NCBI GenBank assembly: GCA_945864225.1
Contig: CAMBAL010000024.1
Coordinates: 1-35,761 of the forward strand
Length of the DNA: 35,761 bases
Source of the DNA: an uncultured Blautia sp.
Lineage (GTDB): Bacteria; Bacillota; Clostridia; Lachnospirales; Lachnospiraceae
Direction of reading: 5' to 3'
The position numbers were made by a program, and so were the translations under genes. Below the pieces are notes generated by a model. That model saw only the letters and a list, made by a program, of their open reading frames with translations, searched no databases and was not told the DNA's origin. Shown piece after piece: positions 12,287 through 35,607 of this stretch (its first letter is position 1; each line of letters begins with the position of its first letter).

Positions 12287-14479
12287 TCACTGCTCCATCA
12301 CAAAATGGAAATTCCAGCTCTGGTATTCTCCTCTGAATGCAGGAAGGCGGAAGCCTCCGTACATCAGAGCGGCACCCAGATACCGTTCCCCATTCATCAC
12401 ATAGAATTTATCTTCTTTCAAACCGCGAAGCTTCACATAAACCGGTGCTGCATTCGGATAGGTTTTTACGGAAACTGCGCTCATCAGAGCTTCACTTCCG
12501 TCTTCTGCAGCAAATTCCCATACAGTAAATGCTTCATTCTGATATGGATCAGTAATTCTGTAATATTTCCCATCCTGGATTAGATTATAATATCCCTGAT
12601 ATACTTTAATCTGCTCGCGGATTTCTGTTTTTTCTTCTTCGGTCAGCTTCATCGGATCCAGTTCGTATCCAAAAGTTCCGGCCATGGCAACCGTTGCTCT
12701 GGTCGCGATCGGGGTCACTCTGCCGGTCTGATGATTCGGGCTTGCAGATACATGCGCACCCACAGCACTGATCGGATAAGCAAAAGAGGTTCCATACTGG
12801 ATTTTCAGTCTTTCAATGGCATCGGAATCATCGCTGCACCAGATCTGAGGGCTGTAGTACAGCATACCGGCATCGAAACGTCCGCCTCCGCCGCTGCAGC
12901 CTTCCAGTAATATATTCGGATAACGTGTAATCAGTTTTTCCAGGAAATCATACAGACCCAACACATATCTGTGACTGATTTCTCCCTGTCTGTGTGCAGG
13001 AAGCGCCGCACTGTAAAGGTCGGTAAGATTACGGTTGAAATCCCATTTCAGGTAATCGATTTCCGCATGATCCAGTACTTCACACATCTGTGCAAACACA
13101 TGATCGCGCACATCCTGTCTGGAGAAATCCAGTACCAGCTGGTATCTGCCGCGGACAGGTTTTCTTCCCGGCACCTGGAATGCCCAGTCCGGATGCTCCC
13201 GATAAAGATCACTGTCCTCAGACACACATTCCGGTTCAAACCAGATACCGAATTTTAATCCGAGACCGTGAATCCGCTCTGACAGTTCACCAAGCGTACA
13301 TCCCAGTTTCTTTTCGTTGACATACCAGTCACCAAGTCCGCTGAAATCGTCATCTCGTTTTCCAAACCATCCGTCATCCATAACAAACAGTTCCACACCC
13401 AGAGACGCAGCTTCCTTTGCCATATCTACCAGTTTATCACCGGTAAAGTCAAAATAGGTACCTTCCCAGTTATTCATCAGGACAGGTCTTCTTGCCTTTT
13501 TATATTTGCCTCTGCACAGGTTGTTGCGGTAAGCATAATGATAAATCTGGGACATTTTTTCAAAACCGGTGCTGCTGTATACCATAGCCACTTCCGGAGT
13601 CCAGAAATCCTCTCCCGCATTCAGTTCATATTCAAAATTATCCGGATGGATTCCCATCACAACTCTTGTCTGATTTGCCTGATCAAGTTCTGCCTCAGCA
13701 AGGAAGTTTCCGCTGTACAGAAGAGAAAATCCATAGCATTCTCCCTGTGTTTCTCCGGCAGTATGATCCGCAAGAACCACAAACGGATTATAATGATGGC
13801 TGGAGGAACCTCTGACACTTCCCACAGACTGCAGGCCGTGATGCACCGGAGTACGGGAAAGATTTCGTTCCATCTCGTGTTTTCCATAGAATGTCATCCA
13901 GTCATAGGAACCATACATCTGGTCCAGACACATAGAAGCTGCTTTTTCCAGATAGATGGCACCGGAGGTACCGTTCTCAATACGGACTGCTCTGGTGATC
14001 ATATCCAGATTTTCCATCACACCATAATATAAATGTACAAAAATATCCTCTGCCTGATCTTTTAAAGTAACTACAAGCGTATCCGCACGGTCACCTTCCT
14101 GTGCATAAACCGCAGGCATTCCCGGAATGGAGTATTTTCCTTCCAGAACTTCAGAATGATCAAAGCGAAGATCCAGAACACGGCAGCCATTTGCAGTACG
14201 GATTCTCAGTGCACTGGTACGGTAATCTGCAGTTCCGAAACAGGAATATTCCTGCGGAAGAATTTCTGTAGAGTACGTTCTGTTCTTTTCCGCATCATAC
14301 GGATTAGCTGCAAATCCGCGATCCTTGCAATAAATCAGGTAGGAATAATCGGTATTCTCTGTTTTTCTTCCATAATAAGTATGCAGAAGAACTCCCAGAT
14401 CATCTTTTTTCATTTGATACATGCTGTTTTTGGTATACATCGTAAACAAAGCTTTTTTTTCATCAAATACTACTGCCAT
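12287..14479 (-). CDS. alpha-galactosidase, glycoside hydrolase family 36
   Basis: This enzyme hydrolyses terminal alpha-1,6-galactose from raffinose-type sugars and galactomannans. It has 730 residues and no signal peptide, so it acts in the cytoplasm. After the N-terminal beta domain (to about residue 320), the catalytic barrel shows VMDDGWFGKRDDD, KFGIWFEPECVS, the nucleophile D480 in YLKWDFNR and the acid/base D550 in IWCSDDSDAIERLKIQYG, with LLEGCSGGGGRFD between them. The length matches the Bacillus/Geobacillus AgaA type, usually a tetramer. The start at 14479 follows GGAGAAGG. A divergent AraC regulator (14761-15621) and inverted operator-like sites lie upstream. No dedicated oligosaccharide transporter is beside it. 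The nearest sugar transporter is the monosaccharide system at 17020-20906. Confidence 0.95.
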   Translation of the reverse strand: MAVVFDEKKALFTMYTKNSMYQMKKDDLGVLLHTYYGRKTENTDYSYLIYCKDRGFAANPYDAEKNRTYSTEILPQEYSCFGTADYRTSALRIRTANGCRVLDLRFDHSEVLEGKYSIPGMPAVYAQEGDRADTLVVTLKDQAEDIFVHLYYGVMENLDMITRAVRIENGTSGAIYLEKAASMCLDQMYGSYDWMTFYGKHEMERNLSRTPVHHGLQSVGSVRGSSSHHYNPFVVLADHTAGETQGECYGFSLLYSGNFLAEAELDQANQTRVVMGIHPDNFEYELNAGEDFWTPEVAMVYSSTGFEKMSQIYHYAYRNNLCRGKYKKARRPVLMNNWEGTYFDFTGDKLVDMAKEAASLGVELFVMDDGWFGKRDDDFSGLGDWYVNEKKLGCTLGELSERIHGLGLKFGIWFEPECVSEDSDLYREHPDWAFQVPGRKPVRGRYQLVLDFSRQDVRDHVFAQMCEVLDHAEIDYLKWDFNRNLTDLYSAALPAHRQGEISHRYVLGLYDFLEKLITRYPNILLEGCSGGGGRFDAGMLYYSPQIWCSDDSDAIERLKIQYGTSFAYPISAVGAHVSASPNHQTGRVTPIATRATVAMAGTFGYELDPMKLTEEEKTEIREQIKVYQGYYNLIQDGKYYRITDPYQNEAFTVWEFAAEDGSEALMSAVSVKTYPNAAPVYVKLRGLKEDKFYVMNGERYLGAALMYGGFRLPAFRGEYQSWNFHFVMEQ

Positions 14480-16478: not shown

Positions 16479-16796
16479 TTATTCTTCTGTTTCGGATTTG
16501 TTTTCTCCATTCTCTCGCATTCTGGCAAAAACCATTTCATAACCATCATTCCCATAGTTAAGAGAACGGTTCACACGGCTGATGGTTGCAGTGGATGCAC
16601 CGGTCTTCTCGGAAATATCCAGATAAGTGCGCTTGTCCATCAGCATCTTGGCAACTTCAAAACGCTGTGAAAGAGACAAAAGCTCGTTGATCGTACATAC
16701 ATCTTCAAAAAATGTATAACACTCTTCTTTATTCTTCAAACACAAGATTGCCTCAAAAAGATGATCAACTGCTTCCGTTCTAATCTTCTTACCCAT
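16479..16796 (-). CDS. yerC: YerC/YecD family TrpR-related protein
   Basis: This 105-residue protein has the TrpR-like fold. INELLSLSQRFEVAKMLMDK followed by the helix-turn-helix TYLDISEKTGASTATISRVN and RSLNYGNDGY is characteristic of the YerC/YecD family. These proteins are presumed DNA-binding regulators, and no tryptophan role is established. The start at 16796 follows AAAGGAG. It converges with the DUF1836 gene on a shared terminator. The length is normal. Confidence 0.92.
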   Translation of the reverse strand: MGKKIRTEAVDHLFEAILCLKNKEECYTFFEDVCTINELLSLSQRFEVAKMLMDKRTYLDISEKTGASTATISRVNRSLNYGNDGYEMVFARMRENGENKSETEE

Positions 16797-17019: not shown

Positions 17020-18204
17020 TTATTTTGCTATAAAGGATTTTCTCTTACTTACTACATCAAAGATTACAGCAGCCAGAAGAACCGCACCTTTTACTACTTT
17101 CTGCATATTCTGGTCTGTACCCATGATACTCATACCCTGGTTGATGATACCCATCAGAACAGCACCAACGATAACACCCGGAACTGTACCGGTTCCGCCG
17201 TATGCAGAAGCACCGCCGATGAAACAGGAACCGATGGCATCCATCTCATAGTTCTGTCCGTAGGTCGGCTGTGCGGAAGTCATACGAGCTACCGTCAGAA
17301 GACCTGCAAGAGCTGCAAGAAATCCCATATTGGTATAAGCAATAAAATATACCTTGTTTGTATTGATACCGGAAAGCTTTGTTGCTTTTTCATTTCCGCC
17401 CACTGCGTAGAAATAGCGTCCTACGGTTGTTTTACTTGTGATATATCCATAGACAAGAACAACGACCAGAACCCATACAAGAGAAGTCGGGATACCTTTG
17501 TACTGGGCAAGTTTAACACTGACAGCCATCACTACTGCCACAATCAGAACCATCTTTACATACATGGCACCTACACTGCCTGTTTCATATCCGTTTTTCT
17601 TTCTGTTCAGATATCCCCGCATGGTCATTGCCACATAAATCGCACAGGCAAGAATACCAACTGCAAGAGCAACCCTGTTCAGGCCTTCTCCGCCTCCCAG
17701 GAAATCCGGAACGTAGCAGTTAGCACCGCCTCCGAATAATTTAACGAATGTTTCGGATTTAATCGGAAGTGTTTTTCCTGCCAGTACCACGTTAGACAGA
17801 CCACGGAACATCAGCATGCCTGCAAGAGTTACAATAAATGGAGGAATACGCACATAAGCGATCCAGAATGCCTGCCATGCACCGATCAGAGCACCGATCA
17901 GCAGGGAAAGAATCACAGCCACCCCATCCGGCAGACCCATATTTTCCATAAAGATACCGCACAGAGCACCTACAAAGCAGACAACGGAACCAACAGAAAG
18001 GTCAATGTTTCCTCCTGTCAGGATACACAGCAGCATACCAGTTGCAAGCACAAACACATATGCATTCTGCGAGATCAGGTTGTTAATATTCTGCGGGTAA
18101 AGAATCTTGCCCTGTGTTCCCCAGGTAAAAAACAGAGTGACCAGAACAAGTACAATAATCATTGTATATTTTTGAAATCCGGCTTTTAATTTTGCTTTAT
18201 CCAT
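17020..18204 (-). CDS. mmsB: multiple-monosaccharide ABC transporter permease
   Basis: This is an inner membrane permease of the ribose/xylose class (MmsB/GguB type), 394 residues with about ten helices. MLLCILTGGNIDLSVGSVVC and IPPFIVTLAGMLMFRGLSNV are family signatures, and AVGGNEKATKLSGINTNKVY lies in the cytoplasmic loop that contacts the ATPase. IGGASAYGGTGTVPGVIVGA closes the core. The start at 18204 follows AAAGGAGAG, which overlaps the end of mmsA three bases upstream. It is the last gene of the chvE-mmsA-mmsB operon. Known relatives import xylose, glucose, galactose or arabinose, so the exact sugar is open. Confidence 0.95.
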   Translation of the reverse strand: MDKAKLKAGFQKYTMIIVLVLVTLFFTWGTQGKILYPQNINNLISQNAYVFVLATGMLLCILTGGNIDLSVGSVVCFVGALCGIFMENMGLPDGVAVILSLLIGALIGAWQAFWIAYVRIPPFIVTLAGMLMFRGLSNVVLAGKTLPIKSETFVKLFGGGANCYVPDFLGGGEGLNRVALAVGILACAIYVAMTMRGYLNRKKNGYETGSVGAMYVKMVLIVAVVMAVSVKLAQYKGIPTSLVWVLVVVLVYGYITSKTTVGRYFYAVGGNEKATKLSGINTNKVYFIAYTNMGFLAALAGLLTVARMTSAQPTYGQNYEMDAIGSCFIGGASAYGGTGTVPGVIVGAVLMGIINQGMSIMGTDQNMQKVVKGAVLLAAVIFDVVSKRKSFIAK

Positions 18205-18207
18205 TGC

Positions 18208-19746
18208 TTACTCTCCTTTGCTTGACTTCAGAATACATGCCATAATCTTTTCCTGAGATGCCTCTTCTGCCGTTAACTCTCCGGCGATTCTGCCCTCATT
18301 CATGATATAGATACGGTCTGACATCCCCAATACCTCCGGAAGTTCGGAAGAAATCATAATGACTGATTTTCCTGCTGCAACAAGGTCATTGATAATACAG
18401 TAGATTTCGTATTTTGCACCTACATCAATACCTCTGGTCGGCTCATCCAGAATCAGGACATCCGGATCCGCAAACATCCATTTTGCAAGCAGTACTTTCT
18501 GCTGGTTGCCACCGCTTAAGTTTCCAACGTTCTGTTCTACGGAAGGACATTTTGTTCTCAGCTTGTCCTTATATTCCACTGCAACCGCATACTCTTTATC
18601 CGGATCAATGATTCCGTTTTTGCTGACACCTTTCAGATTGGCAAGTGTCGTATTAATTTTAATAGGATTGCTTAAGATCAGTCCGTCTCCCTTTCTGTCT
18701 TCTGTTACATAAGCCAGTTTGTGCTCAATGGCATCACGGGCACTTTTCAGATGAACTTCCTTTCCGTTCAGGAAAAGATTTCCGCTGATATTCACACCAT
18801 AACTTTTTCCAAAAACGCTCATGGCCAGTTCCGTACGTCCCGCGCCCATCAATCCGGAAATTCCCACTACTTCTCCTTTGCGCACATGCATCGATACATG
18901 ATCTACAACTTTGCGCTCCGAATACAATGGATGATATACGGTCCAGTCTTTGATCTCCATATTAACATCGCCGATTTTTACACCATGACGTTTCGGAAAA
19001 CGGTCTGCAATCTCTCTGCCGACCATTCCTTTGATGATACGGTCTTCGGAAAAATCGTCCACACCTTTCACCAGTGTTTCAATTGTAGAACCATCACGGA
19101 TGACCGTAATCTTATCAGCAACGTAAGCAACTTCATTCAGTTTATGTGTAATAATAATGCAGGTAAGACCTTCTTTTTTCAGTTTCAGCATCAGGTCAAG
19201 AAGTGCTTTGGAATCTGACTCGTTCAGGGATGATGTCGGCTCATCCAGAATCAGAAGTTTTGCGTTCTTTGCCAGTGCTTTGGCAATTTCCACAAGCTGC
19301 TGCTTGCCCACACCGATGTCTTTGATCAGCGTTCTGGTAGACTCGGAAAGTCCAACCTGTCTTGTATATTTCTCTGCCATTCCGTAAGTCTGATCCCAAT
19401 TAATGGCAAATTTTTTTCCACGTTCATTTCCCAGGAACATATTTTCTCCGATCGTCATATAAGGTATCAGAGCAAGTTCCTGATGAATAATTACAATACC
19501 TTTGGATTCACTGTCTTTGATATCATGAAAATTGCATACTTCTCCGTTATAAATGATATCTCCTTCATAAGTTCCATAAGGATATACACCAGAAAGAACA
19601 TTCATCAGAGTAGATTTACCGGCGCCGTTTTCACCAACAAGTGCATGGATTTCTCCCTCTTCTACCTGAAGATTCACATTGTCAAGCGCCTTTACGCCAG
19701 GGAATGTTTTGGTGATATTCTTCATTTCCAACAGTATCTTTGCCAA
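18208..19746 (-). CDS. mmsA: multiple-monosaccharide ABC transporter ATP-binding protein (TTG start)
   Basis: This 512-residue protein carries two fused ABC domains, as usual for sugar importers of the CUT2 class. Domain 1 has Walker [10 protein letters not shown] (residues 38-46), the signature-like [13 protein letters not shown] and [10 protein letters not shown]. Domain 2 has the degenerate Walker [10 protein letters not shown], normal for the family, with [15 protein letters not shown] and [10 protein letters not shown]. The start is TTG at 19746, placed seven bases after GGAGGG. The first in-frame ATG is seven codons later and has no ribosome binding site. It is the middle gene of the operon. 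A very stable hairpin (19770-19795) separates it from the binding-protein gene upstream, which would lower its expression relative to that gene. Confidence 0.95.
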
Positions 19747-19769
19747 AATTTCTCCCTCCTATCACAGCA

Positions 19770-19795
19770 ACAGGCGGGCGCGCCGGCCCGCCTGT
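19770..19795 (-). promoter_or_regulatory. GC-rich intercistronic hairpin between chvE and mmsA
   Basis: ACAGGCGGGC (19770-19779) and GCCCGCCTGT (19786-19795) form a perfect 10-pair stem with a six-base loop. No T run follows. It sits just before the mmsA ribosome binding site. Such hairpins commonly protect the upstream binding-protein mRNA and reduce downstream expression. Confidence 0.7.
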
Positions 19796-19838
19796 GCAGA
19801 ACATTTTACAGAACAGATTTTATACGATGATATTCAGA

Positions 19839-20906
19839 TTACTGTAACTGATCTTCTGTATAATATCCGGAATCAACAAGCATCTCTTTGTAGTTGTCAA
19901 CGGTTACTGCAACCGGCTCGCAAAGGTAAGACGGGATAACGCCTGTGCCGTTGTCATAAGTTTCGGTATCGTTTACAGGAGCTTCGCCGTCCTGCATGAT
20001 AGCGTCAACCATTTCAACAACCTTGGATGCCAGTGTACGGGTATCTTTGAATACGGACATCGCCTGTTTGCCGGCAATGATGTTCGGCATATTTGCAATA
20101 TCGCAGTCCTGACCGGTGATGATCGGATATTCGCCTGTATAGTTTGCTGCCAGAGCGTTTTCTACACCAAGTGCGGTAGAATCGTTGGAAGCAAGAACAG
20201 CGTCAAGGTTTGTTCCGTCTGCATAATAGGAAGAAAGAATGTTTTCAAATCTAGCCTGTGCAGTTTCTGTTGCCCAGTTTGCAGTAGCAACTTCATCTTT
20301 TGTCATCTGTCCGGACGGGCAAACCAGTTTGCCTGCATCAATGTATGGCTGAAGAACATCCATAGCTCCGCCGAAGAAGAAGTTTACGTTGTTGTCACCA
20401 GGGTCACCTGTTACAAATTCAATATTGAATGGTCCGTCCTGATTGTCCAGATCCAGAGCATCTACCAGGAACTGTCCCTGAGTTTTTCCGACAAGATAGT
20501 TATCAAATGTTGCATAGTAAGAAACAGCATCGGTGTTCATGATCAGACGGTCATAGGAAATAACCGGAATCTCTGCTTCTTTTGCCTGTGCAAGAACTGT
20601 TCCGAGAGAATCACCCTCGATGGAAGCGATAACCAGAAGCTGATCACCGTTTGCGATCATATTCTCAATCTGAGAAACCTGTGTTGCAACATCGTTTCCT
20701 GCATACTGGAGGTCTACTTCGTAGCCTTTTTCTTCCAGTTCTTTTTTCATATTCTCGCCGTCCTGATTCCATCTCTGAAGATCCTGAGTAGGCATTGCAA
20801 CGCCGATCAGTCCTTTGCTTTCTTCAGCTTTTACTGCTGCAGGTGCTGCCACCATACCAGCTACCATAGATGCACAAAGAGTAGCTACAAACAATTTTCT
20901 TTTCAT
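19839..20906 (-). CDS. chvE: multiple-monosaccharide substrate-binding protein, ChvE-like, without lipobox
   Basis: This periplasmic-binding-protein type I sugar receptor has 355 residues. Residues 1-27 are a Sec signal peptide (MKRKLFVATLCASMVAGM, with probable cleavage after AVKA). The mature part begins GLIGVAMPTQDLQRWNQDGE and contains YDRLIMNTDAVSYYATFDN and VLASNDSTALGVENALAANY, typical of the ChvE/xylose-binding group. It delivers sugar to MmsA/MmsB. Oddly for a Gram-positive, no lipobox cysteine follows the signal: the only early cysteine (C11) is not in a lipobox context. The protein would therefore be released or held by another factor. The start at 20906 follows GGAGG. A promoter is at 20997-20968. 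Confidence 0.93.
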   Translation of the reverse strand: MKRKLFVATLCASMVAGMVAAPAAVKAEESKGLIGVAMPTQDLQRWNQDGENMKKELEEKGYEVDLQYAGNDVATQVSQIENMIANGDQLLVIASIEGDSLGTVLAQAKEAEIPVISYDRLIMNTDAVSYYATFDNYLVGKTQGQFLVDALDLDNQDGPFNIEFVTGDPGDNNVNFFFGGAMDVLQPYIDAGKLVCPSGQMTKDEVATANWATETAQARFENILSSYYADGTNLDAVLASNDSTALGVENALAANYTGEYPIITGQDCDIANMPNIIAGKQAMSVFKDTRTLASKVVEMVDAIMQDGEAPVNDTETYDNGTGVIPSYLCEPVAVTVDNYKEMLVDSGYYTEDQLQ

Positions 20907-20967
20907 TTTGAATCCTCCGTTTCTTTTTTGTACTGTATCAGTACTCCGTTCTTGATGATGTTATTGT

Positions 20968-20997
20968 AGCATAACACCTACAGGACTTAGTTGCCAA
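20968..20997 (-). promoter_or_regulatory. probable promoter of the chvE-mmsA-mmsB operon
   Basis: TTGGCA (20997-20992) and TATGCT (20973-20968) are separated by 18 bases on the minus strand, about 60 bases before the chvE ATG. Its weak -10 would fit an activator such as the adjacent response regulator. Confidence 0.5.
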
Positions 20998-21023
20998 ATT
21001 ATCGGACATTTTTCAGAAACATA

Positions 21024-21054
21024 AAAAATGCCCTGCATAAAGCAAGACATTTTT
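21024..21054 (-). terminator. terminator after the sensor operon
   Basis: On the minus strand AAAAATGTCTTGC pairs with GCAGGGCATTTTT (two G-U pairs) around TTTAT, giving 13 pairs that end in a U tract. It lies about 60 bases after the stop of the lipoprotein binding-protein gene and separates the sensor operon from chvE. Confidence 0.7.
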
Positions 21055-21112
21055 GTCACAAAAATTTCCTATTGACTTTTGTATATATTACATGTATTTT
21101 TTCGATTTTTGT

Positions 21113-22183
21113 TTATCTTTTTGGTACATTCAGATAAACATCTTCTTCTGAATGAACTCCTCCATCAATAATAATCTCATCCATATTGTCCTTCGTTACA
21201 GCAACGGGCTGGAGCATACAGAAAGGAATATCATTCGTACCATCATTGATGCTGCTGTTGATCCGTTCCAGTTCCTCTCCTTTGGCCATTTTCACAGCAT
21301 ATCTTGCAGTAGCTTTTGCAAGTGTTTCCACAGATTTGAACACAGTCATCGTCTGGGTGCCTTCCACAATTCGCTGACATGCAGCCAGATCCCCGTCCTG
21401 TCCGACCACATGAACCTGCCCGGCAAGACGATGCTCAGAAAGGACACGGACTACCTGTGATGCGATATCATCATTTCCGCACATGATACCCTTCACATCC
21501 GGATACTGTTCCAGTGCCTCTTCCAGATAATCCACAGCCTGCTCTGCAACCCAGCCATCACAGCCTGCCCGGTACACCACCTGAAGATTACTGTTCTCAA
21601 GTTTCTCCTCAAAACCTTCCCGTACCATCTGCACATTATTGTCTTCCTCAGGCCCCTGAATCATAAAAATCTCTCCGCCTTCCGGAACAGACTCGATCAG
21701 AGCCTCTCCCATCAGTTCACCAACACCTTTATTATTAAAAGATACATAAAGATCCGTATCTGCGTTCAGGATCAGACGGTCATAGGAGATCGTTTTGATT
21801 CCTGCCAGTGAGGCAAGATTCATTACATGGGAAAGGGCACTGCAGTCACAGGCGATCACAATGAGCACATCTACCTCTTTATCGATCAGATACTCGATCT
21901 GGGCAATCTGCTCCTCTACGCTTCCATTGGCATTCTGTACGTTCACTTCCGCACCCAGTTCTTTTGCAGTCGATACAAGTATATCCCTGTCACGGATCCA
22001 GCGTTCAATCACAAAAGAATCAAAACTGACTCCGATTTTTACTGCATCCGGATCCGACTGCTCTGTACTTTCCGTCACGCTTTCCAGTTCTTCCTCCTGT
22101 TTTCCGCAGGCACAAAGCATCATGGACACGCACAAAAACAAGCTGATGATACCGGTGATTTTGATCCACTTTTTCATTTTCAT
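21113..22183 (-). CDS. sugar-binding lipoprotein linked to the YesM/YesN pair
   Basis: This 356-residue protein has a lipoprotein signal (GIISLFLCVSMMLCACGK; lipobox LCAC with lipidated C26), then a type I periplasmic-binding fold related to xylose/ChvE proteins: KIGVSFDSFVIERWIRDRD, SYDRLILNADTDLYVSFNN and VVGQDGDLAACQRIVEGTQ. It resembles the chvE product but is anchored to the membrane and belongs to the sensor operon rather than the transporter operon. Its ATG overlaps the response regulator stop by four bases (ATGA). It may feed the transporter, present sugar to the kinase, or both. A second in-frame ATG at 22177 is an alternative start. A terminator follows at 21054-21024. Confidence 0.92.
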   Translation of the reverse strand: MKMKKWIKITGIISLFLCVSMMLCACGKQEEELESVTESTEQSDPDAVKIGVSFDSFVIERWIRDRDILVSTAKELGAEVNVQNANGSVEEQIAQIEYLIDKEVDVLIVIACDCSALSHVMNLASLAGIKTISYDRLILNADTDLYVSFNNKGVGELMGEALIESVPEGGEIFMIQGPEEDNNVQMVREGFEEKLENSNLQVVYRAGCDGWVAEQAVDYLEEALEQYPDVKGIMCGNDDIASQVVRVLSEHRLAGQVHVVGQDGDLAACQRIVEGTQTMTVFKSVETLAKATARYAVKMAKGEELERINSSINDGTNDIPFCMLQPVAVTKDNMDEIIIDGGVHSEEDVYLNVPKR

Positions 22184-23775
22184 CCCAACCTTTCCCGATA
22201 TTCCCTGGGTGTCACACCTTCATATTTCTTAAAAATTCTGCTGAAATAATTCGGATCACTGTAACCGCACATGGCACAGATTTCCTTAATACTGTAATTC
22301 TGATTCATCAAAAGCTGACGTGCATTCTGCATCCTGATCCTGGTCAGATATTCAATAAAATTTTCTCCCTGCTCCTGCTTAAACAGCTTGCTGAAATAAT
22401 AAGGACTGATATCTACCAGTCTGGATACCTCATCCAGCGAAATATCCTTCTGATAATTCTCATCAATATATGCTTTCGCTTTTGCAACAACAGACTCGGA
22501 TTCCTTTGCTTTTGTGGTGGCCATCCCCCTGCAGACCTCTTCGGTCTTTCTAAGGAACCAGGTTCGAAGTGCTTTATAATCACTGCTTGACTGGATTTCT
22601 TTCAGATAATTCTCACGATAGCGGAACCCATATTTCATCCCGCCTCTGAAAAAGGCATTCTGTTCCACACGCATGACAAGCTCCAGAACCTTAATCTCAA
22701 TATCTTCCCGGTAATCGCTGTAGTTCTCCAGCATCCAGTCAAAGAAACGATTCGCTGCTTCTGAAGAGCCCGCATAATCTGCTTCCATGGTTCTCTGCAC
22801 ATAACGATTCTCCAGTTCCATGGGGTATTCTCCGTCATAGCCCTGGACAATGGGAATGTCATTGATATGTACAACATGACTGCTGCTCTCTCTGAGTGCC
22901 CGGAGAGCTTCTGTATACGATTCCTTAACTTCTTCCAGAGCCCTGACTCTTCCGATACCTCCGCGGAATTTGCTGTCTATGCGGCTTTCCAGTTTGTGCA
23001 GCATATTTCGCATACGGGTAAGAATTTCCACACGCTCCTCATATTCCACACAATCCTTTTCGTGAGGAACCAGAAGCACAATACGGTTTCCCATCACAGG
23101 TCCTACCAGACATTCAAAAAATCCCTTGGCAATCTCACGAAATTCCGGATAAAATTTGCTGGCACGAACACTTGCTCCCACTGCATTGGTGAGAATTCCG
23201 TCTTCAATGCTGTCACCAAACTCCACAACTGCCATAAAGCCGTATTTTTCCTCAATACTCAGCAATTCCCGGTAATTATTCTCATAGGTATGGAAATCAT
23301 CCTGTAAAAGAACATTATAAATGTAACCAGACTCTATGATCGGAAGAATTGTTTCCAGTTTTTCCCGGATCTTCAGGTCGTCACTTCGTTTCTGCCGTGC
23401 TTCATCTACCTGCCTCATGGCCTTCATGCAGACTTCCAGGATTTTCTTTTTGTTCACCGGCTTGGTGAGATACTCCATAACACCCAGATTAATGGCCTCC
23501 TGCGCATAATGAAATTTATCATACGCAGTGATCACAATAAAAATCATCCCCGGATTAAATTTGCGGATTTCTTTCATAGCCTGAATTCCGCTTAACCCAG
23601 GCATCTGAATATCCACAAAAGCGATATCCGGGCGAAAAGATTCCGCCTGTTCCACCACAGCCCTGCCTGTTTTTGCACAGGCGATCTCACATTCACTTCC
23701 AAAATTACTGTTGATGATATTTTTCAGAGATTCCAGCATAATCCCTTCATCATCTGCAATCAATATCCGATACAT
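22180..23775 (-). CDS. YesN-type response regulator with AraC DNA-binding domain
   Basis: This 531-residue protein has an N-terminal receiver (about residues 1-120) with the acidic pair in LIADDE, phospho-acceptor D55 in IAFVDIQMPG, T in IVITAYDKF and K in YLTKPVNKKK. A long middle region of unclear fold (about 130-420) follows. The C-terminal AraC domain (about 430-531) holds SLDEVSRLVDISPYYFSKLF and SIKEICAMCGYSDPNYFSRI. The start at 23775 follows GGAGGAG and overlaps the kinase gene by 16 bases, so the two are made together. By analogy with YesN proteins linked to sugar transport, it probably activates the chvE-mmsA-mmsB promoter. No binding site could be assigned. Confidence 0.95.
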   Translation of the reverse strand: MYRILIADDEGIMLESLKNIINSNFGSECEIACAKTGRAVVEQAESFRPDIAFVDIQMPGLSGIQAMKEIRKFNPGMIFIVITAYDKFHYAQEAINLGVMEYLTKPVNKKKILEVCMKAMRQVDEARQKRSDDLKIREKLETILPIIESGYIYNVLLQDDFHTYENNYRELLSIEEKYGFMAVVEFGDSIEDGILTNAVGASVRASKFYPEFREIAKGFFECLVGPVMGNRIVLLVPHEKDCVEYEERVEILTRMRNMLHKLESRIDSKFRGGIGRVRALEEVKESYTEALRALRESSSHVVHINDIPIVQGYDGEYPMELENRYVQRTMEADYAGSSEAANRFFDWMLENYSDYREDIEIKVLELVMRVEQNAFFRGGMKYGFRYRENYLKEIQSSSDYKALRTWFLRKTEEVCRGMATTKAKESESVVAKAKAYIDENYQKDISLDEVSRLVDISPYYFSKLFKQEQGENFIEYLTRIRMQNARQLLMNQNYSIKEICAMCGYSDPNYFSRIFKKYEGVTPREYRERLG

Positions 23776-25274
23776 GTCTCCTCCGTCTCCCTGTAAGGGA
23801 TGGTAATCGTTACCTCTGTTCCCTGATTTTCACCCGGACTTTTGATGGTCAGCAGATTTTTCTGTTTGTAGTACAATTCCAGTCTGCTGATCACATTATG
23901 CATTCCTATCCCTGTCGAATCTCCGGGATTCTCCTCTGTTCTTAGCTCGCCGCTTAAAATCTGCCCGATCCGCTCTTTCGCAATGCCCTTTCCATTATCG
24001 ATCACACTGATTCGGATATCCGTTCCCTCCTGCTGTATCAGGAGATGAATCGAACCTTCCCATTCAATATTCCGGATACCGTGATTTACCGCATTTTCCA
24101 CAATGGGCTGCAGGATCATACTTGGCACCCTGCACTCCAGCACAGACTCATCTACGTCTGTGGTATAATGGATATCTCCCGCAAACCGCACATTTAGTAT
24201 GTAAATATAGTTCTCTACAGCCTCTACTTCTTCCCTCAACGTTGCATCTTCACTGCCTTTTTTTACATTATAACGGAAAAACTCCGCCATACGTTCCACA
24301 AAAATGCAGGTTTTTTCCGCGTCCTCCATCATCGCAAGCTGGGCACCGGCATTCAGGGAATTAAAAAGAAAATGCGGGTTGATCTGTGACTGAAGATATT
24401 TCAGCTGGGCTTCTTTGAGATGAGCCTCCATGAGAAGCTCGCGCTCTACCATGGCCTGTTCTTTTTCCATGTTTTCTTTTGTCAGTTTCATATATTCTTC
24501 CAGACTGGACACCATGGTGTTAAAAGCTCTGGTCACTACTCCCACTTCATCCTGTGCATCCGTCTGGGGCATTTTTACGTTAAAATTCGCCTGTCCTACT
24601 AGGTTTGCCGTGGCAGCCAGTCCTGTAAGCGGTGCCACAACTCCTCTTACCATATAAAACAGCATCAGAATACAGACTCCCATCATCAGAACCAGCATCA
24701 CAAGACTGCCGACTTCAATATAGCGGATGGAATTCTGAAGCGTCCGGTAACTGGATGAATTATTCTTAAACTGCAGGACATTCAGGTCAGAAATACAAGA
24801 ATTCAAATACCGGTACATCTGCAGAGCTTCCGCATAGGAAGTTTTATATTTTTCCACGTTTCGGCCTCGTTTGGCAAGAACTGTTTCCGCTGTATATTCC
24901 AGATAGGTCTCCGACATTTTGCGGATATTCTTTTCCAGAAGTTTGACCGGATTATCCATTGGCCTGTCATTGAGCTGTTCCAGAAGTTTTTTGTACTGTT
25001 CCTCATTCCGGTAATAACTCTCCAGAGAATCCGATGTTTTTACAGTAAGGTAATTGTACATTCCCGTCTGCACAGATTCCAGCGATTCTGCCAGCTCCGT
25101 CAGGTTCACATTACTGGCATAGATACTGTCCAGTCTCTGCATGGTTTTATTGACCTGCCAGTACATCAGCAGATTGGTAACAAACAGAATCAGCGCAATC
25201 ATTCCCACCTGACAGAGCACCTTCACTGCCAGCGGAAAATCCTTCCACCGAAATCGTTTTTTCTTTTTCTCCAT
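23760..25274 (-). CDS. YesM-type sensor histidine kinase
   Basis: This 504-residue membrane kinase has helix 1 at about residues 16-38, an extracellular helical region of about 145 residues, helix 2 at about 187-209, a HAMP domain (210-262), a coiled segment and the His_kinase domain with H301 in SQINPHFLFNSLNAG. The ATPase domain shows QPIVENAVNHGI, VIDNGKGI and STGIGMHNVISRL. The small all-helical sensor domain, with no sugar-binding fold of its own, fits a kinase that reads a separate binding protein. The gene starts one base after the membrane-anchored binding-protein gene and overlaps the response regulator gene. This is the XylFII-LytS-YesN arrangement known from solventogenic clostridia. 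Confidence 0.94.
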   Translation of the reverse strand: MEKKKKRFRWKDFPLAVKVLCQVGMIALILFVTNLLMYWQVNKTMQRLDSIYASNVNLTELAESLESVQTGMYNYLTVKTSDSLESYYRNEEQYKKLLEQLNDRPMDNPVKLLEKNIRKMSETYLEYTAETVLAKRGRNVEKYKTSYAEALQMYRYLNSCISDLNVLQFKNNSSSYRTLQNSIRYIEVGSLVMLVLMMGVCILMLFYMVRGVVAPLTGLAATANLVGQANFNVKMPQTDAQDEVGVVTRAFNTMVSSLEEYMKLTKENMEKEQAMVERELLMEAHLKEAQLKYLQSQINPHFLFNSLNAGAQLAMMEDAEKTCIFVERMAEFFRYNVKKGSEDATLREEVEAVENYIYILNVRFAGDIHYTTDVDESVLECRVPSMILQPIVENAVNHGIRNIEWEGSIHLLIQQEGTDIRISVIDNGKGIAKERIGQILSGELRTEENPGDSTGIGMHNVISRLELYYKQKNLLTIKSPGENQGTEVTITIPYRETEETCIGY

Positions 25275-25275
25275 G

Positions 25276-26286
25276 TCAGTTCTCCTGCTTCCTGCTGCTG
25301 TCTTCGGTTATCACATTCAGATCCACGGTATAATAGGAATTTGCCCTGCCTACTTCCCAGTACTCTGTAAGCGCCTCAATACTGTAAGTGCCAATCTGTT
25401 CCACATCCATGCTGATTGTCACCGGAATCAATCCCTTCCCGACAGCGTCCATAATCGTTTTGGAAGTATAATAGCCGATGATTTTCACTTCTCCTACCAT
25501 ATTATAATCGATCATCGCCTGATAGGCACATTCTGTCGTCACTTCATCCAGACAGACCAGAATCTGCGGCGGTCCTTCCTCTGACTGGAAAATACTCCGA
25601 ATCACTTCTTCCGTATCGAACTGACTTTGAGACATGATGTTTTCGGATTGTATTTTTATTTTGTGGTTCTGACCGGCATTCTCCACAGCACTGTTGATCT
25701 GTGCATAAAGCTGATTCTGACCCAGCTCCTGTACCCGGTTCAGAAGCACCAGCACGCTTCTGGTATCAGAATCCACCAATTTCGCCACCTCGGCCCCATA
25801 TGCCTGTCCAAGCTGATAATCATTGATTCCCACAAATGACTGTCGCAGGCTCTTCGGGGCATCATTGACAATGGTCACCACCGGGATTCCCTTTTCCACC
25901 GCTTCATCGATTTTATCCTGAAGGCCTTCTTCGCCGTTATATTCCAGAATAATTCCATCCACCTGTGCGGCAATACACATATCCATATAATCAGACTTTG
26001 AATAATTTTCCGCACTTTCGATTCCCTTCATTTCCAGAATCGCATCATGCTCCAGAGCTTTTTCTCCGGCATTTTCATAAACCGCGTTCCAGAAAGTCAG
26101 ATTCCGGCTGTCTACGATCATTTCATAATGATATCTGTATTCATGGTTGACTTCTTCTGCTGTGACTCCTGCATCCTCCATGATTCTTTTGTAATAGGTG
26201 ATCATGATAAAAATAAACAACGCTGCAATGAGCAGGGACAGAACCATAAGCCAAACTTCTTTATTGATCTGTTTTCTGTTTTTCAT
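25276..26286 (-). CDS. membrane-anchored sugar-binding protein, probable co-sensor of the kinase
   Basis: This 336-residue protein has one uncleaved N-terminal helix (about residues 11-30; WLMVLSLLIAALFIFIMITY) followed by an extracellular RbsB-like periplasmic-binding domain: CIAAQVDGIILEYNGEEG, GIPVVTIVNDAPKSLRQSFV, GINDYQLGQAYGAEVAKL, ILVCLDEVTTECAYQAM and GLIPVTISMDVEQIGTYSIE. No lipobox or signal cleavage site is seen. In XylFII-LytS-YesN systems such a protein binds the sugar outside the cell and switches the kinase. The start at 26286 follows TTGGAGG. An ATG at 26307 is excluded because it lies in the promoter -10 region. It is the first gene of the four-gene sensor operon, divergent from the YesL gene. 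Confidence 0.92.
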   Translation of the reverse strand: MKNRKQINKEVWLMVLSLLIAALFIFIMITYYKRIMEDAGVTAEEVNHEYRYHYEMIVDSRNLTFWNAVYENAGEKALEHDAILEMKGIESAENYSKSDYMDMCIAAQVDGIILEYNGEEGLQDKIDEAVEKGIPVVTIVNDAPKSLRQSFVGINDYQLGQAYGAEVAKLVDSDTRSVLVLLNRVQELGQNQLYAQINSAVENAGQNHKIKIQSENIMSQSQFDTEEVIRSIFQSEEGPPQILVCLDEVTTECAYQAMIDYNMVGEVKIIGYYTSKTIMDAVGKGLIPVTISMDVEQIGTYSIEALTEYWEVGRANSYYTVDLNVITEDSSRKQEN

Positions 26287-26305
26287 GAAAATTTCCTCCA
26301 ATTTC

Positions 26306-26333
26306 ATTATAGCAGAGATGCTTCATAACTCAA
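26306..26333 (-). promoter_or_regulatory. promoter of the sensor operon
   Basis: TTGAGT (26333-26328) and TATAAT (26311-26306) are separated by 16 bases on the minus strand. The start point would be about 13 bases upstream of the ATG at 26286, giving a very short leader. This placement decides the start codon of the first gene. Confidence 0.6.
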
Positions 26334-26365
26334 AGAAATTTTTTATAACAGAATCCATTTTCAAA

Positions 26366-26394
26366 TTGCTTTTTTTGTGCTATTTCGCTATACT
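26366..26394 (+). promoter_or_regulatory. promoter of the YesL operon
   Basis: TTGCTT (26366-26371) and TATACT (26389-26394) are 17 bases apart. It faces away from the sensor operon promoter, whose -35 lies only 33 bases to the left, so the two could share regulation. Confidence 0.6.
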
Positions 26395-26446: not shown

Positions 26447-27136
26447 ATGGACCGTTTGTTTAATATGGACAATAAATTCTTTGTATTTATGGGCAAGATT
26501 GCCGACCTGATCATCCTCAATCTGCTTTGCCTGGTATGCTGTCTCCCTATTGTTACAGCGGGGGCTTCCATTACCGCAATGTTTTATGTCACTCTGAAGA
26601 TGGTGCGAAACGAAGAATCCTACATCGTAAAGAGTTTCTTCAAGTCTTTCAAGGAAAACTTCAAACAGGCAACGATCATCAATCTGATCATGCTGGTAAC
26701 TGCTCTTCTTCTGGTTCTGGATCTTCGGATTGTGAATCAGTTGGAAGGTACTGTCGGTCAGGTGCTTCATGTAATCTTCATTGCTTTCATGCTGCTGTAC
26801 CTGATGATTTTCCTTTACATTTATCCGGTTTTATCCAAGTTTTATAACAGTATTCGGAATACATTTGTCAATGCATTTCTGATGTCGATCCGCCATCTTC
26901 CGTATACCATACTGATGCTGGTTATTTCCGCAATACCGATCGCCATCTGGTTCATTCCAAATACTTCGATTTTATCCACGATTCTGATGCTGTTCATCAT
27001 GCTTGGTTTTGCTACGATTGCATACTGCAATTCCAATTTCTTCGTGAAAATTTTTGATAACTATATCCCGAAGGAAGAAGATGCCGATAACACAGAAAAT
27101 CCTGATCTTCTGGAAAATCATGAGGAACAGGCATAA
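26447..27136 (+). CDS. YesL family (DUF624) membrane protein
   Basis: This 229-residue protein has about five membrane helices and the family hallmark N-terminus FFVFMGKIADLIILNLLCLV, then CCLPIVTAGASITAMFYV. The family typically accompanies YesM/YesN two-component systems and carbohydrate transporters in Firmicutes (Bacillus yesLMN), but its biochemical job is not known. The tail is acidic (KEEDADNTENPDLLENHEEQ). The start at 26447 follows AAAGGAAG. The stop overlaps the next start by one base (TAATG), so it is translationally coupled to a radical SAM gene of unrelated function. Confidence 0.9.
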   Translation: MDRLFNMDNKFFVFMGKIADLIILNLLCLVCCLPIVTAGASITAMFYVTLKMVRNEESYIVKSFFKSFKENFKQATIINLIMLVTALLLVLDLRIVNQLEGTVGQVLHVIFIAFMLLYLMIFLYIYPVLSKFYNSIRNTFVNAFLMSIRHLPYTILMLVISAIPIAIWFIPNTSILSTILMLFIMLGFATIAYCNSNFFVKIFDNYIPKEEDADNTENPDLLENHEEQA

Positions 27137-32091: not shown

Positions 32092-32802
32092 CTATTCTCC
32101 CAGATATGCTTTCTGGACAGATTCGTCATGCAGAAGATCTTCTGCTTTACCGGACAGAGAAATTTTGCCGGTTTCCAGAACGTAAGCTCTATCTGCAATG
32201 GTCAGAGCTTTCTTTGCATTCTGTTCTACCAGAAGAACTGTGGTACCGCTTTCGCTGACTTTTTGAATAATATCAAAAATCTCATTTACGAAAATCGGTG
32301 ACAGACCCATAGAAGGCTCATCCATAACAATGATTCTCGGCTTACTCATAAGAGCACGGCCCATGGCAAGCATCTGCTGCTCGCCGCCGGATAATGTACC
32401 GGCTCTCTGATTCTTACGTTCCTCAAGGCGCGGAAAACGCTTGTAAACATTCGCCAGACTTTCTGCAATCTCATTTTTATCTTTGCGGGTATAGGCACCC
32501 ATAATCAGATTTTCATAAACACTCAGCTGAGAAAAAACTCTTCGTCCTTCCGGCACATGAGCAATTCCCATCTGCACGATCTTGTGGGCAGGCATTCTGG
32601 TAATGTCTTTTCCCTCAAAAGTAATGGTACCCTGTTTCGCCGGAATCAGTCCGGTAAGTGTGTGCAGCGTCGTTGTTTTTCCGGCACCGTTGGCACCGAT
32701 CAGAGCGATAACCTCACCCTGGTTGACTTCAAAGGAAATCCCCTTCAATGCCTGAATCACGCCGTAATACACGTGTAAATCTTTTACCTCTAACATTGCC
32801 AT
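32092..32802 (-). CDS. livF: branched-chain amino acid ABC transporter ATP-binding protein LivF
   Basis: This 236-residue ABC ATPase has Walker A GANGAGKTT, signature LSGGEQQMLAMGRALM, Walker B RIIVMDEPSMGLSP and the switch histidine replaced by Q in LLVEQNAKKAL, which is normal for LivF. MLEVKDLHVYYGVIQALKGI is the typical start of the protein. It works with LivG on the LivH/LivM channel. The ATG at 32802 follows GGAGG. A second in-frame ATG at 32796 is an alternative. It is the fourth gene of livHMGF. Confidence 0.95.
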   Translation of the reverse strand: MAMLEVKDLHVYYGVIQALKGISFEVNQGEVIALIGANGAGKTTTLHTLTGLIPAKQGTITFEGKDITRMPAHKIVQMGIAHVPEGRRVFSQLSVYENLIMGAYTRKDKNEIAESLANVYKRFPRLEERKNQRAGTLSGGEQQMLAMGRALMSKPRIIVMDEPSMGLSPIFVNEIFDIIQKVSESGTTVLLVEQNAKKALTIADRAYVLETGKISLSGKAEDLLHDESVQKAYLGE

Positions 32803-32816
32803 AGTTCCGATTCCTC

Positions 32817-33575
32817 CTATTCACCCAGATATGCAGTTACTACTGCCGGATCTTTCAGTACCTCAGCAGTCTTGCCCTGTGTCAGAACCTGACCGAAGTT
32901 CAGAACAGTCAGTTCCTCACAGATTCCGCCTACCAGTTTCATATCATGCTCAATCAGAAGAATCGTCATGTCAAAATGATCTCTCACAAAACGGATGGTG
33001 TCCATCAGCTCCTGAGTCTCATTAGGGTTCATGCCTGCTGCCGGCTCATCCAGAAGCAGCAGCTTCGGATCCGTTGCAAGCGCTCTGGCAATTTCCAGTT
33101 TACGCTGCTTGCCATAAGGAAGATTTCCTGCCAGATATTCTGCTTCTTTGTCCAGATCAAATACTTTCAGGATTTCCATGGCACGCTCATCCATCTCTTT
33201 TTCCACCTTATAATATTTCGGAAGTCTCAGGATTCCTGTAAGAGTAGAATAGGGATGATGGTTATGAAGACCGACTTTTACATTGTCGAGAACCGGCATA
33301 TCCTTAAACAGGCGGATATTCTGGAAGGTTCTGGCAATTCCGGCCTTGTTGATCTCAATCGTACTTTTGCCTGTGATGTCTTCTCCATCCAGGCGGATAA
33401 TTCCTTCTGTAGGTTTGTAAACACCCGTCAGAAGGTTAAAAACAGTTGTCTTACCGGCGCCGTTCGGTCCGATCAGTCCATAAAGCTGTCCTTTTTCGAT
33501 AGTGATATTAAAATTATCAACTGCACGAAGGCCGCCGAACGAAATAGACAATGTATTTACATCAAGTATTGCCAT
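32817..33575 (-). CDS. livG: branched-chain amino acid ABC transporter ATP-binding protein LivG
   Basis: This 252-residue ABC ATPase has GPNGAGKTTVFNLLTGVYKP, GIARTFQNIRLF, the signature-like LPYGKQRKLEIARAL, Walker B LLLLDEPAAGMNP and LLIEHDMKLV with the switch histidine. The NPNETQELM stretch and the insert after Walker A are typical of LivG. The ATG at 33575 follows GGAGG about ten bases upstream. It lies two bases after livM and 14 before livF, so the genes are co-transcribed. Confidence 0.95.
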   Translation of the reverse strand: MAILDVNTLSISFGGLRAVDNFNITIEKGQLYGLIGPNGAGKTTVFNLLTGVYKPTEGIIRLDGEDITGKSTIEINKAGIARTFQNIRLFKDMPVLDNVKVGLHNHHPYSTLTGILRLPKYYKVEKEMDERAMEILKVFDLDKEAEYLAGNLPYGKQRKLEIARALATDPKLLLLDEPAAGMNPNETQELMDTIRFVRDHFDMTILLIEHDMKLVGGICEELTVLNFGQVLTQGKTAEVLKDPAVVTAYLGE

Positions 33576-33577
33576 AA

Positions 33578-34651
33578 TTAAGCTGCCTCCTTCTTTGGTC
33601 TTGTTCCTTTGATTTTTTCAACAATACGGCTTCTCCAGTTACGAGCAGCAGGTGCCCAGTTAAAGAGCATCATTGCAATCAGGACAATTGCATAAATCAG
33701 CATACGATACGTGGAGAATCCGCGGAGCAGTTCCGGAAGTGCATACAGAATAATCGTTGCGATAATGGAACCGCGCAGGTTACCGATGCCGCCAAGAACC
33801 ACATATACAAGAATCATAATGGACAGGTTGTAGTCAAAAATAGAAACCTTCAGCATCGAAAGGTTATGTGCATACAGCACACCTGCAACCCCGGCCAGTG
33901 CTGCGGAAACAGTAAACGCCAGAAGCTTGTAGGACGTAATATTGATTCCCACAGATTCTGCCGCAATACGGTTATCACGAGTGGACATAATCGCACGTCC
34001 GCTTCTGGAATGTACCAGATTCTGTACCACAAACAGTGTGATCAGAACCAGGATGATACCGATCAGGAATAGATACGGCTTAATATCTTTGTAAAGGGTA
34101 GAGGTACCGGAAATACCAAGCGCACCTTTCATGATCTGTTTGCCGCCGGCTTCCAGATTCAGTCCGGCAGAACTGGTTGCCACATGGATACCATTCTCAT
34201 CAACACCCACATATAACACGTTGATCAGGTTCTTGATAATCTCACCGAATGCCAGTGTTACAATCGCAAGATAGTCACCGCGGAGTCTCAGAACAGGAAT
34301 ACCGATGAGAATACCGAATACACCTGCCACGGCAGCACCGATGAGAATTGCCAGGATCAGTCTTGGAACAGAAGGAAGGGCATCTCCTACCACATTGGAA
34401 AACAATGCACTGGAATAGGCCCCTACACACATAAAGCCTGCATGACCCAGACTCAGTTCACCGGAAAAACCAACCACCAGGTTCAGAGAAACAGCTGCAA
34501 TCGTATAAACGCAGAGAGGAACCAGAAGTCCCTTCAGAAGGTTTGACAGATTTCCTGTTGAGGAAAGAGTCTGTACCACTGCAAAGATTACGACCACCAT
34601 TGCATATGTAATAAAATTATTCTTTGATGTTTTGTTCATATTTTTCTTCAT
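33578..34651 (-). CDS. livM: branched-chain amino acid ABC transporter permease LivM
   Basis: This 357-residue permease has about ten helices. GFSGELSLGHAGFMCVGAYS and the coupling-loop region RLRGDYLAIVTLAFGEIIKN are family signatures, followed by GRAIMSTRDNRIAAESVGIN and GGIGNLRGSI near the end. The C-terminus is basic (KIKGTRPKKEAA). The ATG at 34651 is preferred because AAGGTGG lies five bases upstream. A GTG at 34660 in the same frame is possible. It lies directly after livH. Confidence 0.93.
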   Translation of the reverse strand: MKKNMNKTSKNNFITYAMVVVIFAVVQTLSSTGNLSNLLKGLLVPLCVYTIAAVSLNLVVGFSGELSLGHAGFMCVGAYSSALFSNVVGDALPSVPRLILAILIGAAVAGVFGILIGIPVLRLRGDYLAIVTLAFGEIIKNLINVLYVGVDENGIHVATSSAGLNLEAGGKQIMKGALGISGTSTLYKDIKPYLFLIGIILVLITLFVVQNLVHSRSGRAIMSTRDNRIAAESVGINITSYKLLAFTVSAALAGVAGVLYAHNLSMLKVSIFDYNLSIMILVYVVLGGIGNLRGSIIATIILYALPELLRGFSTYRMLIYAIVLIAMMLFNWAPAARNWRSRIVEKIKGTRPKKEAA

Positions 34652-34661
34652 ATCGGCCACC

Positions 34662-35546
34662 TTACACTTTCTCCTGGATGTTCTTGCCGAACAATCCTGC
34701 AGGTTTTACAAGAAGCACGATAATCAGTACCGCAAATACAATTGCATCCGCTACCTGGGATGAAATGTAAGCTCGTCCAAAAATCTCAATCACACCCAGA
34801 AGGATTCCGCCGACCATAGCTCCCGGAATGGAACCGATTCCTCCAAATACCGCTGCCACGAACGCCTTGATACCAGGCATCGCACCTGTGTACGGTGTTA
34901 ATGTAGGGTAAGCGGAACATAACAGAAGACCTGCAATTGCAGCCAGACCGGAACCAATGGCAAATGTCAGTGAAATCGTAGCATTTACGTTGACTCCCAT
35001 CAGCTGGGCCGCATCTCTGTCCTCGGCAACAGCCTGCATGGCACGTCCCGGTTTTGTTTTATTAACAAAAAACGTAAGTCCCAGCATGATTACAATACAT
35101 GCCAGAATCGTCACGATCGTGATTCCTTTAATCGTCAGTCTTCCATCAAACAATGTCAGAGTAGGAACGTTGATGACAGTTACAAAGCTCTTCGCATCTG
35201 CTCCGAAGATCAGCAGAGCCAGATTCTGAAGCAGATAACTGACACCAATCGCCGTGATCAGCACTGCAAGGTTGGAAGATGCTTTTCGAAGCGGGCGGTA
35301 AGCAACCATCTCGATTACCACGCCAAGAACTGTACATACGATAATACCCAGGATGACAGATACTACCGGAGAAAGACCGGCCTTCGTAATTGCAGTAAGA
35401 ATTACAAACGCACCGACCATAATAATATCTCCATGAGCAAAATTCAGCATCTTCGCAATACCGTATACCATGGTATATCCCAATGCGATAATTGCGTAAA
35501 CACTGCCCAGGCTTATCCCATCTTTTAAATAAGATATAAAACTCAT
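34662..35546 (-). CDS. livH: branched-chain amino acid ABC transporter permease LivH
   Basis: This 294-residue permease has about eight helices. GSVYAIIALGYTMVYGIAKM and LNFAHGDIIMVGAF are hallmark LivH sequences, with GRAMQAVAEDRDAAQLMGVN as the coupling loop and FGGIGSIPGAMVGG near the end. The start at 35546 follows GAGGTG. The in-frame ATG at 35558 overlaps that site and is rejected. It is the first gene of livHMGF plus the kinase-like gene. The substrate-binding gene livJ is not in the window. It may lie upstream beyond 35761, or the system may share a binding protein encoded elsewhere. Confidence 0.95.
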   Translation of the reverse strand: MSFISYLKDGISLGSVYAIIALGYTMVYGIAKMLNFAHGDIIMVGAFVILTAITKAGLSPVVSVILGIIVCTVLGVVIEMVAYRPLRKASSNLAVLITAIGVSYLLQNLALLIFGADAKSFVTVINVPTLTLFDGRLTIKGITIVTILACIVIMLGLTFFVNKTKPGRAMQAVAEDRDAAQLMGVNVNATISLTFAIGSGLAAIAGLLLCSAYPTLTPYTGAMPGIKAFVAAVFGGIGSIPGAMVGGILLGVIEIFGRAYISSQVADAIVFAVLIIVLLVKPAGLFGKNIQEKV

Positions 35547-35607
35547 AGTGCACCTCATAAAATGAATTTATCGTTACGGTTACCGCCCGAAGGGCTTTTC
35601 TCATTCT

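Follow-up and report, generated by a model that had tools for sequence, protein, structure and literature searches.

The XylFII-LytS/YesN-XylFGH module of Clostridium beijerinckii was reportedly described by Sun in 2015 and by Li in 2017. In XylFII-LytS, according to the accessible part of one report, the anchored protein binds both the sugar and the kinase (PMC7017829). An excerpt on CuaDSR of Ruminiclostridium cellulolyticum has the predicted lipoprotein CuaD binding cellobiose and the outer domain of the kinase, and the importer's CuaA not binding the kinase (PMC10384115). The available text of a third source describes a secreted PF13407 protein, a YesM-YesN pair, a ChvE-like lipoprotein and a complete ATP-binding cassette (ABC) transporter in Parageobacillus thermoglucosidasius (AOT13_11420-11435) and, for Agrobacterium ChvE-VirA, one sugar-binding protein that feeds the importer (GguAB) and signals to the kinase (PMC13068155). 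Here we analyse a related seven-gene locus in a contig of 35,761 nucleotides from an uncultured Blautia sp. (CAMBAL010000024.1; the whole stretch is called the window).

All seven genes lie on the minus strand, at the positions given in the preliminary description, and the order proposed there is borne out: a sensor operon of a binding protein anchored by a membrane helix (ANCH, P0001), a YesM/LytS-type histidine kinase (P0002), a YesN-type regulator (P0003) and a lipidated binding protein (P0004, XYLFL), followed past a terminator by ChvE, GguA and GguB. We think it somewhat more probable than otherwise that this is a four-component sugar sensor of XylFII-LytS-YesN kind, in which the lipoprotein is the receptor and the anchored protein a pocketless adaptor. 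Recognition of the sugar would have passed from the XylFII-like anchored protein, its own pocket lost, to a XylF-like lipoprotein dedicated to the task and tethered next to it. The sugar-loaded lipoprotein would dock on the anchored protein and/or the helical outer domain of the kinase; docking would switch the kinase, and the YesN-type regulator, once phosphorylated, would turn on chvE-gguA-gguB.

Sugar pockets of the anchored protein and the lipoprotein

XylFII is the best PDB relative of ANCH by sequence and stands in the top tie by fold; the structure model places the N-terminal helix of ANCH at residues 16-45. The kinship of the system to XylFII-LytS-YesN, put forward in the preliminary description, is supported. 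As polar sugar contacts we used positions that we take to be N13, D89, R141, D215 and Q235 of ribose-binding protein, mapped on XylFII; one of them is marked independently, being Ala in the 5xsd chain and Asp in the other two XylFII chains. ANCH of the window keeps none of the five, and L70, V147, L200, Y280 and M300 (numbered from the ATG at 26307) replace the N, D, R, D and Q of XylFII. Among 156 non-redundant anchored proteins from loci with the lipoprotein, 134 likewise keep no contact, 17 keep one and 5 keep two. The 11 from loci without it comprise eight with all five contacts, one with four (L273), one with two (L177) and one with none (L151), and the anchored protein of L272, a locus cut too early to be called, has all five. 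Of 204 anchored proteins, 4 were too short and 200 were aligned; these counts are for the 168 left after removal of redundancy at 90% identity. Following the published module, XylFII was entered as a protein without the lipoprotein.

Among the 53 columns conserved in a lipoprotein-free core of 10 rows (L151 and L177 left out), the five contacts rank 2, 4, 5, 7 and 8 in depletion, and their mean retention is 0.035 against 0.46 (p 5e-5 by sampling over columns, not lineages; p 0.0011 with polar columns only); depletion is also seen in columns other than these five. Fourteen further binding proteins of this family served as a control, and 11 of them keep the Asp, Arg, Asp and Gln of the last four positions, the exceptions being L291 (two missing), L257 (one missing) and L004 from the same genome as the window (three of the four missing). 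The Asn contact, kept in 4 of the 14, is a weaker mark. The control is not wholly separate from the rest: L188 belongs to the lipoprotein-free rows too, and the positions themselves are defined by RbsB.

The pocket of the lipoprotein is intact. P0004 has all ten residues that we take to form the XylF pocket (R61, W62, D135, R136, D181, N183, W211, N237, D263 and K283; letters checked by script), and the ten are kept in 161 of 167 non-redundant lipoproteins and in 83 of 85 ChvE proteins. An anchored protein with 0/5 contacts is paired with a lipoprotein with 10/10 in 125 of 156 loci, 3 loci being without a full-length lipoprotein. P0004 falls below the XylF equivalog cut-off (TIGR02634; 276.7 bits versus 389.55), and in a tree of 63 binding proteins made by a quick method, the 41 lipoproteins form one clade (support 95) beside the transport XylF proteins. 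A loose rule, which has false positives in that it also matches 16 of 202 anchored proteins, finds a lipobox in 173 of 200 lipoproteins, including all 24 of the genus set (redundancy was not removed for tether and gene-order counts). The other 27, judged by eye, comprise 21 with an N-terminal hydrophobic helix, 2 with a Cys before the Cys and 4 that could not be judged. Such a helix replaces the lipobox in the XylF-like protein of the sensor operon of L161-L168, L172, L277-L286, L093 and L094.

The preliminary description had free, lipidated and anchored receptors competing for the same sugar; in the form weighed here, such competition would also set the threshold. P0004 and the window ChvE do have the same ten pocket letters, and ANCH has none of the five XylFII contacts, so the two may share a sugar that the anchored protein probably cannot bind. 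ChvE, moreover, is not always free, as 87 of 103 ChvE proteins outside the genus set have a lipobox; the claim is not supported, and we regard it as very improbable.

Several observations weigh against our preferred reading, a pocketless adaptor with a lipoprotein receptor. The contact positions are presumed ones, carried over from ribose- and xylose-binding proteins rather than read off a structure, and lost known contacts do not prove lost binding. Tyr stands at XylFII's second Asp in 101 of the 156 anchored proteins, in a fairly conserved column (20th entropy percentile), and 137 retain the pocket Trp; some constraint thus acts on the cleft, which may bind a different molecule. In a tree of 103 anchored-protein rows, built by a quick method, the pocket state changes only once, which reduces the link between pocket loss and lipoprotein to one split, and an independent-pairs test with 2-3 pairs gave no support for that link. 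L151 (G265) combines a degenerate anchored protein with a cassette that has no sensor-operon lipoprotein, and in its genome the lipoprotein profile matches, at E 1e-30, only the transporter's own binding protein; L177 (G510), which keeps two contacts, has no lipoprotein behind the regulator. The contact between lipoprotein and sensor, moreover, is a proposed one.

The Tyr and Trp would fit an anchored protein that binds a different ligand through a remodelled cleft, the lipoprotein being a second, independent input to the kinase. The D89, R141 and Q235 positions are, however, mostly hydrophobic (69%, 78% and 79%) and, unlike a sugar pocket, about as variable as an average column (68th, 44th and 63rd entropy percentiles, with N13 at the 42nd), and we consider a remodelled cleft unlikely. 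A repeated, independent origin of the link between pocket and lipoprotein is not supported by the tree and the independent-pairs test; as far as these sequences reach, the pairing is a stable one across a deep group, not a repeated one.

Lipoprotein, sensor and transporter across genomes

In all, 221 sequences were examined, the window included, in overlapping locus sets; 204 held parsed cassettes and 17 did not. Loci that a lipoprotein query had retrieved (L068-L127, L192-L271) entered only the analyses of pocket, distance, tether and gene order; co-occurrence was counted from anchor-led searches. In the family survey (120 genomes, that of the window included), 32 genomes had a lipoprotein match (E 1e-40), 31 an anchored match (E 1e-15) and 30 both. 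G015 and G104 have a weak lipoprotein match (36% identity) and no anchored match; G006 has only the anchored match, yet its locus (L190) ends within the lipoprotein gene. The lipoprotein gene lies inside the cassette in 30 of the 31 anchor-positive genomes and is truncated by a contig end in one of the 30. The remaining genome, G011, has the anchored and lipoprotein genes on different contigs, the latter behind a cut regulator gene. Relatives thus do not routinely lack the gene, an outcome that the preliminary description had named as refuting its idea, and the suggestion of the preliminary description that a lipidated binding protein has become part of the sensor operon is supported, as a constant part of it.

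Wider searches gave a similar picture. The class-wide anchor-led search matched in 62 of 391 genomes, and 58 of 64 places were read (G000 and G060 were already included; G358, G427, G496 and G245 were left out): 47 loci have the lipoprotein, 9 do not and 2 were unparsed, namely L149, which has the lipoprotein, and L189, whose anchored gene is not followed by a kinase gene. The phylum-wide search with XylFII-type anchors matched in 18 of 398 genomes and gave 20 loci, 12 with the lipoprotein, 2 without, 1 cut and 5 unparsed. L160 and L190, with partial lipoprotein genes, count as present. Five loci (L175, L180, L184, L187 and L273) were reassigned to absent despite a best match to the lipoprotein profile behind the regulator, because the ATPase follows directly and the score against the transport XylF profile is similar.

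The lipoprotein is inherited with the sensor. Across 37 of 61 loci (the window and L068-L127), those holding all seven genes with a ChvE-type protein, its pairwise distances correlate with those of the sensor genes at r 0.86-0.90 and with those of the transporter genes at 0.51-0.54; the partial r is 0.85 for the sensor when the transporter is controlled for and 0.075 for the reverse (coefficients only). A chance neighbour is rejected by the family survey and by these correlations. Compared with the window, L089 has transporter genes at 90-93% identity, sensor genes at 47-67% and the lipoprotein at 56%, and the switch from diverged to near-identical sequence falls between lipoprotein and ChvE; it looks as though the whole transporter operon was swapped in one piece.

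It could be argued that the lipoprotein is a second substrate-binding protein of the importer, co-transcribed with the sensor and outside sensing, given that P0004 is closely related to transport XylF proteins and has an intact pocket. Its distances track the sensor, however, and it stays with the sensor where the transporter has been exchanged or lies upstream (for example, L090, L178 and L219). The next matched gene behind the lipoprotein in 192 cassettes is, moreover, ChvE in 108 and a XylF-type transport protein in 30 (31 with one >3 kb away), so that another binding protein of the transporter stands directly behind it in 138; something else comes next in 5, and 48 show nothing in the retrieved piece, many being cut by contig ends. 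An importer receptor therefore appears improbable to us.

The chances seem about evenly balanced that the group is a widespread sensor class in which an anchored pseudo-receptor, itself unable to bind sugar, reads the loaded state of a second, tethered binding protein, captured once from transport XylF by the sensor operon. If so, a kinase would have to carry a stack of two binding-protein folds in order to sense. An annotator guided by XylFII-LytS would probably take the anchored protein of such sensors for the receptor; should most of the group have a pocketless one, that choice would fall on the wrong protein. The group would also offer a natural case of a receptor that loses its ligand site and becomes an adaptor while a relative takes over, with both states available for comparison.

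Kinase, control elements and surrounding genes

The His_kinase domain of P0002 (PF06580, LytS/YesM type) scores 86.7 bits against a cut-off of 25.2. Its small outer domain, described before as helical, is indeed helical in the structure model, at about residues 43-187. This part gives a weak profile match to the LytS sensor domain (5xsd_L/5xsj_L; positions 57-180, E 0.0025); that domain is not among the best 50 Foldseek matches listed for it.

Two starts are available in the ANCH open reading frame (26307-25276). The ATG at 26286, eight bases past a GGAGG, is likelier than that at 26307, because the latter overlaps the TATAAT box. The terminator, found by scan, folds at -16.4 kcal/mol (z -5.3, with 0 of 200 shuffles as stable) and is a conserved block in the locus alignment of relatives. 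The promoter behind it was only partly upheld: the hexamers are present at the expected place, but they match at 9 of 12 positions and the promoter scan of the window is without excess over shuffles (24 candidates against 20.8 +/- 4.8), a caveat that holds for both putative promoters. Aligned over eight loci of the genus, the transporter promoter is well conserved at both ends but not in the middle. Its position makes it the probable target of the regulator. No block is conserved throughout upstream of the anchored gene in an 11-locus alignment, and no regulator-binding motif was established.

Features of the locus and neighbouring genes (window coordinates)
Feature	Positions	Strand	Description
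ANCH, P0001	25276..26286	-	XylFII-like protein anchored by membrane helix
P0002	23760..25274	-	YesM/LytS-type histidine kinase; HAMP, His_kinase, HATPase_c
P0003	22180..23775	-	YesN-type response regulator; Response_reg (REC) and AraC HTH
P0004, XYLFL	21113..22183	-	XylF-like lipoprotein of the sensor operon; lipobox Cys26 in MLCA-C
Intrinsic terminator	21024..21054	-	3' of the sensor operon; stem 21054-21024
Putative transporter-operon promoter	20968..20997	-	TTGGCA-18-TATGCT with TG
P0005	19839..20906	-	ChvE-type transport binding protein; signal peptide, no lipobox
P0006	18208..19746	-	GguA/MmsA sugar ABC ATPase; 835.1 bits, cut-off 810
P0007	17020..18204	-	GguB/MmsB sugar ABC permease; 480.3 bits, cut-off 450
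Putative sensor-operon promoter	26306..26333	-	TTGAGT-16-TATAAT, 10/12 match
GH36 alpha-galactosidase	12287-14479		2.5 kb from the transporter
TrpR-family repressor	16479-16796	-	just past the transporter operon, same strand
DUF624 gene	26447-27136		divergent to the anchored gene
Further ABC system	32092-35558		window end; two BPD_transp_2 permeases and ATPase

ChvE (471.7 bits versus 460), GguA and GguB pass their NCBIfam equivalog cut-offs, and the binding protein ahead of the transporter does have a signal peptide without lipobox, as first noted. ChvE also lacks a lipobox in 20 of 21 genus-set loci (L068-L090), and 9 of the 16 lipobox-less ChvE proteins outside that set are labelled Blautia; two further binding proteins of the same genome, L004 and L008, start without a lipobox.

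The alpha-galactosidase gene may hint at galactose. Xylose was rejected as a certain ligand: the genome, which is 84% complete, has no xylose isomerase match, the alpha-galactosidase lies near the transporter and the lipoprotein shares its pocket with ChvE. YesL, which is encoded next to YesMN in Bacillus subtilis, belongs to the DUF624 family as well.

Comparison with known sensor systems

With the XylFII system of C. beijerinckii, as far as the accessible text describes it, the locus has in common the anchored XylFII-like protein, the LytS/YesM-type kinase, the YesN regulator and an adjacent importer. That six-protein module has one anchored and one transport binding protein, to which the Blautia locus adds a seventh protein, the lipoprotein; the Blautia anchored protein, moreover, lacks the XylFII contacts, and the importer is ChvE-GguAB. 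Among titles and abstract openings, covering few subscription journals, we found nothing on a sensor in which a pocketless XylFII is joined by a lipoprotein as fourth component.

The P. thermoglucosidasius locus shares the PF13407 protein, the YesM-YesN pair and a ChvE-like protein with an ABC transporter; there, the ChvE-like lipoprotein is the importer's, and the available part of the source describes no further sensor-operon lipoprotein (PMC13068155). The Agrobacterium ChvE sequence was compared with that of the window. The excerpted account of Agrobacterium ChvE-VirA/GguAB has one shared binding protein and no anchored co-sensor. CuaD-CuaS-CuaR, in the excerpt at hand, likewise has a predicted lipoprotein, separate from the importer's binding protein, whose gene adjoins those of a kinase and of a YesN/AraC-type regulator; the system differs in having three components and cellobiose as ligand, with no anchored XylFII-like protein mentioned there (PMC10384115). 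Set beside XylFII-LytS and CuaDSR, the Blautia cassette looks like a combination, in which the anchored protein would be kept as adaptor and the lipoprotein would act as receptor.

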